47,145 bases of DNA from the NCBI GenBank assembly GCA_944385665.1, contig CALWYB010000015.1, positions 1-47,145 of the forward strand. Reading direction: 5' to 3'. Source of the stretch: an uncultured Oscillospiraceae bacterium (GTDB taxonomy: Bacteria > Bacillota > Clostridia > Oscillospirales > Oscillospiraceae). Below, piece by piece: positions 5,357 through 28,359 of this stretch; position 1 is the stretch's first letter, and every line of letters starts with the position of its first letter. A program made the translations under genes and the position numbers. Under the pieces are notes generated by a model. The model searched no databases. It saw only the letters and a list, made by a program, of their open reading frames with translations, and had not been told where the DNA came from.

Positions 5357-5983
5357 TTATTCCAGACAGGGCAGCACCTGCAAACCGGGCCTGCCCTGGC
5401 GCACCCCCTCGGCCAGCAGGGCATAGGGGGGCTTGGTTGGGGTATGGGACAGCAATTTCAGCCGCTTGGGCTCCAAATCCCAGCGGCGCATGGTTTCAAA
5501 TAGGTCGGCCATCCGCTCCGTGGGGAAAGACAGGGCAAAGCGCCCGCCGTTGCGCAGCAGCCGAGCCGCCGCCCGGCACAGGTCGTCCAATCCTTCCCGC
5601 TCCATCCGGGCCGGGCCGCCGTCTTTTCCGCTGCCCGGGGCGTAGTAGGGCGGGTTGGACACCACCAGGTCAAAGCTGCCCGGCAGAAAGGGGACCTGAG
5701 ACCAGCTGCCGGTCCAGATCGTCCCCTCCAGGCCATTGCGCTCCAGGTTCTCCGCCGCCAGAGCGGCGGCCGCCGGGTCCTGGTCCAGACCGAACAGGGT
5801 CAAACCGGGCTGACGCTCCTCCAGAAGCAAGAGCAGCACGCCGCTGCCGGTCCCCAGGTCGCACACCCGCCAGCCCTTGCGCACCGTGGCAAACCGTCCC
5901 AGGGCCAGGGCGTCGCTGCCCAGAGGGAACACGCCGGGCCGCTGCTCCAGCTGGTAGGGACCCAGCAGCTCGATCTTACCCAT
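5357..5983 (-). CDS. tRNA1(Val) (adenine-N6)-methyltransferase-like protein (TrmN6/YabB family)
   Basis: 208-residue Rossmann methyltransferase. Motif I is CDLGTGSG (residues 41-48) and the amino-methyltransferase motif IV is VVSNPPYYAPGSGK (NPPYY at 110-114). The N-terminal region LGPYQLEQRPGVFPLGSDALAL is typical of the TrmN6/YabB group, which methylates N6 of A37 in tRNA-Val in E. coli; the target here is inferred from family. The start overlaps the end of the upstream Nudix gene by 8 nt and rsmI follows 18 nt downstream, so this is one operon. Confidence 0.88.
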   Translation of the reverse strand: MGKIELLGPYQLEQRPGVFPLGSDALALGRFATVRKGWRVCDLGTGSGVLLLLLEERQPGLTLFGLDQDPAAAALAAENLERNGLEGTIWTGSWSQVPFLPGSFDLVVSNPPYYAPGSGKDGGPARMEREGLDDLCRAAARLLRNGGRFALSFPTERMADLFETMRRWDLEPKRLKLLSHTPTKPPYALLAEGVRQGRPGLQVLPCLE

Positions 5984-24672: not shown

Positions 24673-24693
24673 AAAAAAACGGGCCTTCGCCCG
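24673..24693 (-). terminator. Second minus-strand terminator behind the large RNA
   Basis: Minus strand: CGGGC-GAAG-GCCCG followed by TTTTTTT. A back-up stop about 20 nt beyond the first terminator, directly before the convergent AEC gene end. Confidence 0.8.
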
Positions 24694-24710
24694 CTCCACA
24701 CCAGATAGAG

Positions 24711-25380
24711 AAAAGAAATGACCCTTGACCGCCCGTTTCGTAATTCGATGCAGTCAAGGGTCATTTCTGGTGGTTCTTGTTATCTAACATCATATGGTTA
24801 CCTCCATTTCTATCAATTCGCATTTACCACACGTTCCGTTTACAGGATGTCGATTTCTGCCATTCAACTTCATTGCCGCGCGTCAACTACGCCGTGCATC
24901 CTCGCTTATGAGGTTCTGTACTGTTGTGGGATCTCATAATTCCTGTAACTTCCTGTGGTATTTGCGTTACCAGATCACACGTTGTATCCGACCAGCTGAT
25001 CTTGTATTGGGTTTCAGAACGTACCGTTGGTTTGCGAAGGGGTTTTCAACATCCCTGGCATTTTGATTACCATTTGAATTCTTCTCTGCTTCAATTCCTT
25101 CTTGTTTTCTCTTCAGCTTACCGACTCTCATGAGCTTTCCTGGTCCGCCGGGTACTTGCAAGTGAAACCGAATTGCATTTAATTTGGAATCCTTGGGAAA
25201 TTTCTTTGCCTGGGGTTTTGAAGTTCCTTTGCTTACCTAGGGATTGATCTGTGATCCGCTACATCTTTGACAGCTTTTTTGTTTTTGATTTACCAGGGAT
25301 TTGATATATCTCAACTTTCTGCTGTCGGATCAGGTGCATCTGGTGCTTAGGTTTGCTACCACATTGGTATCACCCTTTCT
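24711..25380 (-). ncRNA. Candidate large structured non-coding RNA (ROOL-like or new class)
   Basis: About 670 nt, much more AT-rich than its surroundings, with its own TTGACA-17-TATATT promoter and a 14-bp terminator. No reading frame above about 65 codons has an SD or family resemblance. Nested perfect pairings occur in the RNA: 24963-24966/24819-24822 (4 bp), an AA/AA internal loop, 24954-24960/24825-24831 (7 bp), 24941-24948/24840-24847 (8 bp) and 24933-24939/24906-24912 (7 bp). In the 5' part 25321-25331 pairs with 25269-25274 plus 25253-25258 (GAUCCG and ACAGC helices), and 24997-25002 pairs with 24972-24977. A-rich linkers separate the helices, as in ornate large RNAs. A lone non-coding unit of this size in gut Clostridia fits ROOL best among known classes (OLE, GOLLD and HEARO are alternatives), but I cannot verify a consensus match. 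It is not RNase P RNA, tmRNA or SRP RNA: their conserved blocks are absent. Confidence 0.72.
24716..24766 (-). terminator. Terminator of the large RNA
   Basis: Perfect 14-bp stem AAATGACCCTTGAC / GTCAAGGGTCATTT with a 23-nt loop; on the minus strand it runs into TTTCTTTTCTC. Confidence 0.88.
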
Positions 25381-25386
25381 GGCTAT

Positions 25387-25415
25387 AATATAGCACCCGT
25401 CCCTGATTTTGTCAA
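25387..25415 (-). promoter_or_regulatory. Promoter of the large RNA
   Basis: Minus strand: perfect -35 TTGACA (25410-25415), 17-nt spacer, TATATT (25387-25392). No SD or start codon lies at a sensible distance downstream. Confidence 0.85.
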
Positions 25416-25470
25416 CGGTTTTTGGGAGAAATTACAATTCATTTTGCAAGTTTTTTGAAAATCTCTTGCA

Positions 25471-25501
25471 AAAAGGGCGTGCCCGCCGGGCACGCCCTTT
25501 T
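25471..25501 (-). terminator. Terminator of the VanW-DUF2461 operon
   Basis: 14-bp stem AAAAGGGCGTGCCC / GGGCACGCCCTTTT, 3-nt loop, abutting the DUF2461 stop codon. It insulates the RNA promoter just downstream. Confidence 0.9.
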
Positions 25502-26176
25502 TCATCCCTGCTCCGGGGGCGGATCTCCCGCCAGAGCCATGAGATAGTCGTAATAGGGTTTCAGAAATCGGAATCCCTCCGCCACCTGCTGGGCCAGCTC
25601 CGGCTGGAACAGCAGCCCCTCGCAGTTTTCATCCCGGGTGATGGAGATGCTCTTGCGGTTGTACCAGGGGGACAGCAGGGGCCCCGGGTCCCCCTTTGGC
25701 CGCTTGTACATCTCCCCCTCCAGAGCAAACGGGGAGCGGTTGAGCTTCCGGGCCAGCTTTTCCATGGGCTTGGGGTCCCGGTCGATGCGGGCGCGGAGCT
25801 TGGCCATGGTGACGGGAGTGGGGTCGTAGCAGCCCATGCCGAAGCTGTAATACTCCGGGGCGATCTCAAAATAGAAGGCGGGGAGACTGACCCACTGCTC
25901 CTTTGGGCGGCGCAGGGTGAACCACAGATGGTCCTTATACGGCCCCCGGCCGTGGAGCCGCCGGGCGTCCCGGTAGATCCGGGAGACGTGGAGATTGAGC
26001 CCCAGCTTGGGGAAGGCGTCCTCCATGTTCTCCTGGAGCTCCGCCCCCAATTGGCGCAGGGGTTCATCCACGTAAGTGAGATACTCCTGCTTGTGCTGCA
26101 AAAACCAGCTGCGTTCGTTGTTCAGGCGGATTCCCCACAGGAAATCCACCGCTTGCTGTGAAAAACCTTGAAACAT
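25502..26176 (-). CDS. DUF2461 domain protein
   Basis: 224 residues, single DUF2461 (TIGR02453-type) domain: GFSQQAVDFLWGIRLNNERSWF near the start, then VSRIYRDARRL, GPYKDHLWFTL, FYFEIAPEYYSFGMGCYDP and LARKLNRSPFALEGEMYKR. The fold resembles Fe/2-oxoglutarate-like small proteins but no activity is established. AAGGAG precedes ATG 26176. It starts 9 nt after the VanW gene, so the two are co-transcribed; the biological link between them is unknown. Confidence 0.92.
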   Translation of the reverse strand: MFQGFSQQAVDFLWGIRLNNERSWFLQHKQEYLTYVDEPLRQLGAELQENMEDAFPKLGLNLHVSRIYRDARRLHGRGPYKDHLWFTLRRPKEQWVSLPAFYFEIAPEYYSFGMGCYDPTPVTMAKLRARIDRDPKPMEKLARKLNRSPFALEGEMYKRPKGDPGPLLSPWYNRKSISITRDENCEGLLFQPELAQQVAEGFRFLKPYYDYLMALAGDPPPEQG

Positions 26177-27967: not shown

Positions 27968-28359
27968 AATTCCATTACCTCCACACGCCGGAGGGATTCC
28001 GGCATGTCTTTTTGTTTATTTCTCCGCCTAACGCCGGATTTATATCCACATTTCTCACCAATTCTGCGTATTCCCGGAGATCAGCCCCATTATAGCACCC
28101 CTCTTTCTTCCTTACAATTACAGAACAGTTACAACTGTCTCTTCCAAATTTTGCCTCAAAAGCAAAATCCTTGGATGAGACTTTACTTTTTTCGGCCCTT
28201 GGGGTATCATGTTTTTTACGCAGGAGCGTCCCCTGCCTCTCCAGTCTATGCGGATTTAAACAATTTTAAGAAAATCTCAATTGGATTTTGACGCAGCTCT
28301 GTTAAGATATTTTGTAAGCAGACCGCTCCCGCGGCCTACCATCGGAGGGAACAGCCACT
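27968..28359. other. Divergent intergenic region, VanW / XpaC-like genes
   Basis: 392 AT-rich nt without a gene. Holds the VanW promoter at 28089-28117. For the XpaC-like gene only a weak candidate is visible (TTGGAT 28281-28286, 16 nt, TAAGAT). Nothing else recognised. Confidence 0.6.
28089..28117 (-). promoter_or_regulatory. Promoter of the VanW-DUF2461 operon
   Basis: Minus strand: TTGTAA (28112-28117), 17-nt spacer, TATAAT (28089-28094). The leader would be about 115 nt. Confidence 0.78.

Follow-up and report, generated by a model that had tools for sequence, protein, structure and literature searches.

The window, a 47,145-nucleotide stretch of DNA from an uncultured bacterium of the family Oscillospiraceae, contains a free-standing unit whose common core, made up of a promoter, a 5′ minigene (ORF1), a 3′ short peptide frame (ORF2), and a terminator, is organized like a tiny mRNA that carries a minigene in its leader. 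We put the probability at roughly 0.48 that this element is a conserved mini-mRNA or dual-function RNA of Clostridia, in which the ORF2 peptide would be the selected product and ORF1, together with the middle of the RNA, would act in cis. Comparison among copies from other genomes supports both predicted frames and their putative ribosome-binding sites, promoter, terminator, and fold.

Transcription unit, relatives, and gene neighborhood

The unit (24711–25380) lies on the minus strand and is AT-rich, with a GC content of 43.4% compared with 60.4% and 61.8% in the flanking genes and 60.8% in the window as a whole. An earlier reading of the DNA, made from the sequence alone and giving no strand, had proposed a low-GC independent transcription unit behind a TTGACA-17-TATATT promoter; the GC drop, the promoter, and the hairpins bear out the former, and a promoter scan the latter. 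The promoter comprises TTGACA (from 25415), 17 nt, and TATATT (to 25387), agrees with the consensus at 11 of 12 bases, and has a TG before the −10 box; the scan returned 3 sites in the region versus 0.9 expected by shuffling. We place the predicted transcript start 7 to 10 nt past the −10 box, near 25380. Folding of the whole unit as minus-strand RNA gave a z-score of −6.3 (0/20 shuffles as good), and the plus strand folds well too (z −5.0). The features are as follows:

24711–25380, minus strand: predicted whole transcript, from the promoter and terminator positions; matches in 62/64 genus genomes, the window's own included
25410–25415, minus strand: −35 box TTGACA, from the promoter scan; recurs in same-genus copies
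25387–25392, minus strand: −10 box TATATT with extended TG, from the promoter scan; recurs in same-genus copies
25370–25380, minus strand: ORF1 ribosome-binding site (AGAAAGGGTGA); predicted duplex with the 16S tail, −16.0 kcal/mol
25356–25364, minus strand: ORF1, ATG TGG TAG (M-W-stop); the early stop recurs among copies
24815–25352, minus strand: structured middle, variable in length and sequence, from the minimum free energy (MFE), covariation, and a clade consensus fold
24800–24805, minus strand: ORF2 ribosome-binding site GGAGGT; predicted duplex, −15.2 kcal/mol
24761–24793, minus strand: ORF2, MMLDNKNHQK-stop, 10 codons (9-codon start possible); open in all same-genus copies
24711–24768, minus strand: main intrinsic terminator, −34.2 kcal/mol; the ORF2 stop lies within its 5′ arm
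24673–24697, minus strand: second terminator-like hairpin running into T7, −14.1 kcal/mol; similar hairpins follow several relatives, as judged by eye

The neighbors in the window are a Mem_trans transporter gene (convergent), DUF2461, and VanW. A strong hairpin at 25470–25505, between DUF2461 and the promoter, weakly resembles Atu_C9 and most likely terminates DUF2461. Another AT-rich intergenic stretch (27970–28355), between the divergent VanW and Halogen_Hydrol genes, has no Rfam match at the gathering score.

The sequence-only reading had also seen no convincing protein in the unit. This holds for long proteins: the nearest relative (83% identity) differs by 14 gaps, 13 of which are not multiples of 3, and the five ORFs of at least 40 aa share at most about a third (14/40) of their five-residue words with an ORF of that relative. 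It does not hold for the two very short frames, which are conserved.

Same-genus matches fall mainly within the final 100 nt and the initial 60 nt, and the middle varies. In the 61 same-genus copies read (the window and L031–L090), the promoter, both ends, and the terminator recur, L056 being divergent; a strong sigma-A type promoter is followed by the ribosome-binding site and ORF1. The promoter script comparing these copies mis-anchored five rows. Beyond the genus, covariance models detected the 3′ module in 34/150 genomes sampled from the family (R1), 60/346 from the order (R2), 12/342 from the class, and 1/299 from the phylum, the last being the window's own genome, which is included in the sample of every rank; the family and order samples contain three more genomes of its genus. 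Copies found with these models are biased towards those resembling the seed, and stricter filters in this search lose some weak matches. From the family, 46 of 63 model matches were kept (40 loci), and from the order and class together, 44 of 45 (40 loci); the excluded ones were matches to the same hairpin on the opposite strand, along with locus L262. A pattern scan of named genomes yielded 102 stretches, some outside the genus and many in uncultured gut or rumen Clostridia; 80 were examined, and 37 copies that the same-genus set did not yet contain were kept. Removal of identical 3′ stretches reduced 188 copies to 170 distinct ones. The shortest whole copies (L245, L251, and L256) measure about 150 nt, the longest (the window's and L071) about 670–700 nt.

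No conserved downstream gene was found: among 137 copies used, 130 had a downstream ORF called (gene calls around the distant copies being crude), on the same strand in 54 and on the opposite strand in 76. Clustering of the neighbors outside the genus, on which Pfam was not run, revealed no large shared cluster among the 12 largest. A leader of a downstream gene was rejected, since no conserved or regularly same-strand gene is present there. The window's 3′ module had no match in 50,697 phage records or in plasmid records, and viral contigs contained no match to one exact pattern; a phage or plasmid origin was rejected on these grounds.

Certain genomes carry multiple copies, with seven in G209, where locus L232 (4400–7600) holds five tandem copies on one contig, each preceded by a promoter-like sequence. 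Tandem copies also occur in two named assemblies, three in L106 (88–1421) and two in L098 (7346–7906). Multiple copies and the tandem array are what a functionless mobile or repeated element might leave behind. Against this reading, which we consider very improbable, stand the presence, at 45 of the genus's 60 other loci, of a same-strand DUF2461 just upstream (outside the genus the neighbors differ, DUF2461, VanW, and AEC accompanying the element in 1, 1, and 2 of 80 distant loci), the missing plasmid and phage matches to the window's 3′ module, and the codon-level selection on ORF2 described below.

Short frames at both ends of the RNA

ORF2 is open and stops at the same codon in 61/61 same-genus copies, where the ribosome-binding site is followed by [A/T]TG-ATG-YTA-GAT-AAY-AAR, four variable codons, and the stop; codons two to six vary synonymously only (TTA/CTA, AAC/AAT, AAG/AAA). 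The GAGG of the ribosome-binding site is invariant in alignment A1 and nearly so in A2. The consensus peptide is M(M)LD[N/I/T]KxEQK, usually of 9–10 codons, with MLDIKSEQK, MLDTKNSQK, MIEPKNLEK, and similar peptides in distant copies. A mechanical start search assigned 7–12 codons to 165 of the 170 distinct copies (9 or 10 in 154 of those); among the other five, three were called shorter and two were missed, their start lying beyond the search range. Eight rows of A1 are gapped within ORF2. In five of them an entire codon is missing; in L094 and the two L098 rows a single base is, and the frame there runs on for two more codons before stopping, without leaving the stem.

The coding test compared nearest-neighbor pairs (86 distinct ORFs, 71 pairs) and was limited to ORFs made up of an ATG and eight sense codons. 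The synonymous fraction in frame 0 was 0.376 versus 0.210 expected (z 5.7, 0/300 replicates), and in the two other frames it fell below expectation. The first test included copies found with a pattern that, at some sites, permitted synonymous letters only; when it was repeated without them, the result held. The sequence-only reading had taken the RNA to be noncoding and had named codon-like substitution in one frame among the observations that would refute it. By that criterion, the synonymous excess confined to ORF2's own frame contradicts a purely noncoding RNA, and a second frame of 2–3 codons recurs at the 5′ end. Selection does not appear to act on the peptide exclusively: the Asp codon is GAT in 147/147 copies with Asp at that position and the Leu codon is TTA in 132/146, counts in which the search pattern had fixed most of these letters in 35 of the 170 copies, and this uniformity suggests some constraint on the nucleotides. 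According to the available text of PMC11109978, one category of short ORFs comprises frames with conserved start and stop and coding substitutions that are not placed to regulate a main ORF. ORF2 combines a conserved start and stop, a coding substitution pattern, and no constant downstream gene.

The frame ends inside the terminator. The main hairpin (24768–24711) folds into a stem of 22 pairs interrupted by a single bulge (−34.2 kcal/mol, 0/200 shuffles as good) and has TTTT at 24711; the second (24700–24671) has 9 pairs (−14.1 kcal/mol, 4/200 shuffles as good). The 14-bp terminator plus a second one described previously are thus recovered as two hairpins that both fold, but the first stem is longer than had been stated. 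A simple terminator scan lists neither hairpin, the first because its loop exceeds the scan's 8-nt limit. In the consensus stem, 13 of 18 pairs show compensatory changes. At least two bases of the ORF2 stop are paired in the 5′ arm in 163/165 copies, and the second base of the stop covaries with its partner (A1 columns 58–109: GC 43, AU 22, none broken).

This arrangement raises the possibility of a translation-coupled 3′-end switch, in which a ribosome finishing ORF2 would cover the 5′ arm of the terminator and thereby choose between the first and second hairpins. The near-universal placement of the stop, the stem changes that compensate for changes in it, and the second hairpin that follows in the window are consistent with such a switch. 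We nevertheless regard it as improbable: no gene lies consistently downstream, which leaves the switch without an obvious output, and the short spacing from stop to terminator may be mere compactness.

At the 5′ end, ORF1 has the layout of a minigene, with a Shine–Dalgarno sequence (SD), an AUG, one or two codons, and a stop. In same-genus copies, the AUG is followed by an aromatic codon, in many cases by AGG or AAG, and then by the stop, which falls at codon 3 or 4 in 60/61 copies. The exception, L056 (genome G053), belongs to a genome whose two matches start about 550 nt apart, so one copy may be decaying. ORF1 was located in 145 of the 170 distinct copies by a 5′ motif and ATG, with no stop required. 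Among these, the stop comes at codon 3 or 4 in 122, compared with 5.4% of control ATGs (all 10,666 ATGs read from a single strand of 120 fetched loci, those of the element itself counted in). Copies from the order and class encode, for example, M-R-N-stop or M-N-K-stop, several of them with AGGAGGT at the position of the ribosome-binding site; the product is not conserved. The 25 copies in which the motif was not found, like the 23 located ones with no such early stop, argue against ORF1 being universal. Some of those 23 are chance motif matches, and L288, L289, L302, and L320 look like real losses. In the L232 tandem array, an AUG ORF1 of 2–3 codons is present in three copies, and the usual AUG is absent near 5800 and 4720.

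The ORF1 and ORF2 starts lie 39–573 nt apart in the genus and family sets, and up to 710 nt apart at looser motif matches. Judged by their calculated duplexes with an assumed 16S tail sequence, both ribosome-binding sites of the window are predicted to be strong; for 31 control ORFs, taking the best of up to six starts each, the median was −11.5 and the 5th percentile −16.6 kcal/mol.

The folded middle and known RNA families

Taken without the terminator, the middle folds better than expected (MFE z −3.6, 0/100 shuffles as good). In 23 relatives, the fold between the two ORFs has ten helices with 50 pairs in all, a count that leaves out long-range pairs and the terminator. Nineteen pairs changed on both sides versus 10.4 in shuffled alignments, the covariation score was 0.179 versus 0.111, and 92% of cells were paired versus 87%. 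Slid versions of the fold score lower (7–13 pairs, 25–42% of cells), a control that leans towards the fold since the latter was derived from the same alignment. In the window's clade (12 copies), a consensus fold of 33 pairs, 16 with double changes, beats column-shuffled alignments, which are a weak control. At the other extreme, the middle is reduced to a few tens of nucleotides in L245, L251, L256, and one L232 copy, in which both ends stay; the fold is accordingly real in some lineages and lies outside the common core. Of the earlier description of a large structured RNA, the structure is upheld by the covariation, but size is not a family trait.

These observations bear on the strongest rival to the mini-mRNA, a structured regulatory or scaffold RNA in which the folded middle would do the work, the mini-ORFs would only shield the ends from nucleases, and the peptides would be idle. 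Covariation among the 23 relatives, the clade consensus fold, the nonconserved ORF1 product, and the partial nucleotide-level constraint on ORF2 all favor it; the near loss of the middle in copies that keep both ends, and amino-acid selection on ORF2, make it, in our judgment, rather unlikely. The mini-mRNA reading has a difficulty of its own in that the middle is structured and, in some clades, conserved beyond the needs of a simple leader. In a dual-function RNA, the structure and the translated frame would each serve a function of their own; what was observed here is covariation of the middle and coding selection on ORF2.

The consensus fold pairs the stretch following ORF1 with the ORF2 start, in pairs that hardly vary and of which none shows a compensatory change. 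Complementarity between the two stretches is no better than in shuffled sequences (95 copies; group mean z −0.02 to +0.47). A switch in which the post-ORF1 stretch hides the ORF2 start was rejected on both counts, and no simple sequestering switch was found.

The window has no match in Rfam 15 at the gathering score. At E-values up to 10, the region gives 11 weak matches, which sit mostly on hairpins, the best ones included. ROOL, suggested by the sequence-only reading, is absent even at this threshold, as are OLE, GOLLD, and HEARO, which it also named. A search of 19 distant loci found no match in the element; its only hits, four tRNAs and a Gut-1 RNA, lay outside it. In L299 (3479–3735), a tRNA gene starts about 70 nt past the element; at L286 (1941–2146), the Gut-1 RNA (RF01706) has a tRNA as its neighbor and lies some 2 kb away from the element.

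Like the four families, the element is a long free-standing structured bacterial RNA, and the size of the window's copy, the free-standing unit, and the many carriers from rumen and gut speak for membership in one of them. Unlike them, it is variable in length and carries translation signals at both ends, and it has no match to their models or to phages and viral contigs. ROOL and GOLLD have been described from phages and prophages, often near tRNA islands, in the available text of PMC12286853; the window contains no tRNA. Because no Rfam family matches, membership in ROOL, OLE, GOLLD, or HEARO is refuted as far as their models reach, and we attach almost no probability to it. The absence of matches in the window and the 19 distant loci supports instead the suggestion, made in the same earlier reading, of an undescribed class. 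Divergent 6S RNA and divergent tmRNA were each rejected, since the genome has a normal copy of both elsewhere, and a CsrA-type decoy was discarded because the copies do not retain the GGA motif. In a literature search, we found no description of the element, although a supplementary table may list it as an unnamed motif.

Proposed mechanism and comparison with known systems

The mini-mRNA, according to the reading we prefer, would be transcribed as a free-standing unit, strongly and probably constitutively, and ribosomes would load at both of its ends. At the 5′ end, ORF1 would be translated as a minigene of 2–3 codons, its product not being conserved; at the 3′ end, translation of ORF2 would yield the conserved peptide, usually of 9–10 residues, and stop inside the terminator hairpin. 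ORF1 and the folded middle would form a cis leader that protects the RNA and sets how often ORF2 is translated. From the comparison of copies, we infer translation of both frames, protection in cis by ORF1, and a function for the peptide. More tentatively, we propose that the element represents an undescribed kind, which would be widespread in Clostridia: a free-standing RNA with a ribosome-loaded mini-ORF at either end (2–3 and about 9–10 codons). Under this tentative proposal, the stop of the longer frame would form part of the terminator, so that a peptide, ribosome traffic, and the 3′ end would be tied together.

Dual-function small RNAs, such as SgrS, SR1, and RNAIII, join a short translated frame and RNA structure in one transcript. 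The element shares this combination but differs in having two frames, one per end, and in placing its final stop within the stem of the terminator. In leader-peptide attenuators such as trpL, a short ORF runs into a terminator hairpin, as it does here, whereas the element lacks a regulated gene downstream. For the two-codon minigene of axe-txe, the available text of PMC8708949 describes increased expression in cis, possibly through mRNA protection. ORF1 resembles that minigene (mg2), as described there, in being a putatively ribosome-bound two-codon ORF in a leader that likely acts in cis; it differs in spanning a bacterial class and in not lying upstream of a large gene. Leaderless communication peptides, as characterized in the available text of PMC10518010, have 8–10 residues, are highly hydrophobic, and are encoded beside a RopB-like receptor. 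The ORF2 peptides match them, on that description, in size and in having no signal sequence, but are hydrophilic (e.g., MLDNKSEQK), and the element has no constant neighbor; the neighbors in the window, Mem_trans, DUF2461, and VanW, include no RopB-type receptor.

If the proposed reading is correct, gut Clostridia would hold a conserved gene class that ordinary gene finding likely misses because its frames span only about 9–10 and 2–3 codons, and that is absent from Rfam perhaps because most of the RNA varies. The element would then offer a natural model both for the action of two- or three-codon minigenes on an RNA and for amino-acid selection in so short a peptide, and the 170 distinct copies make both minigene action and peptide selection directly testable.
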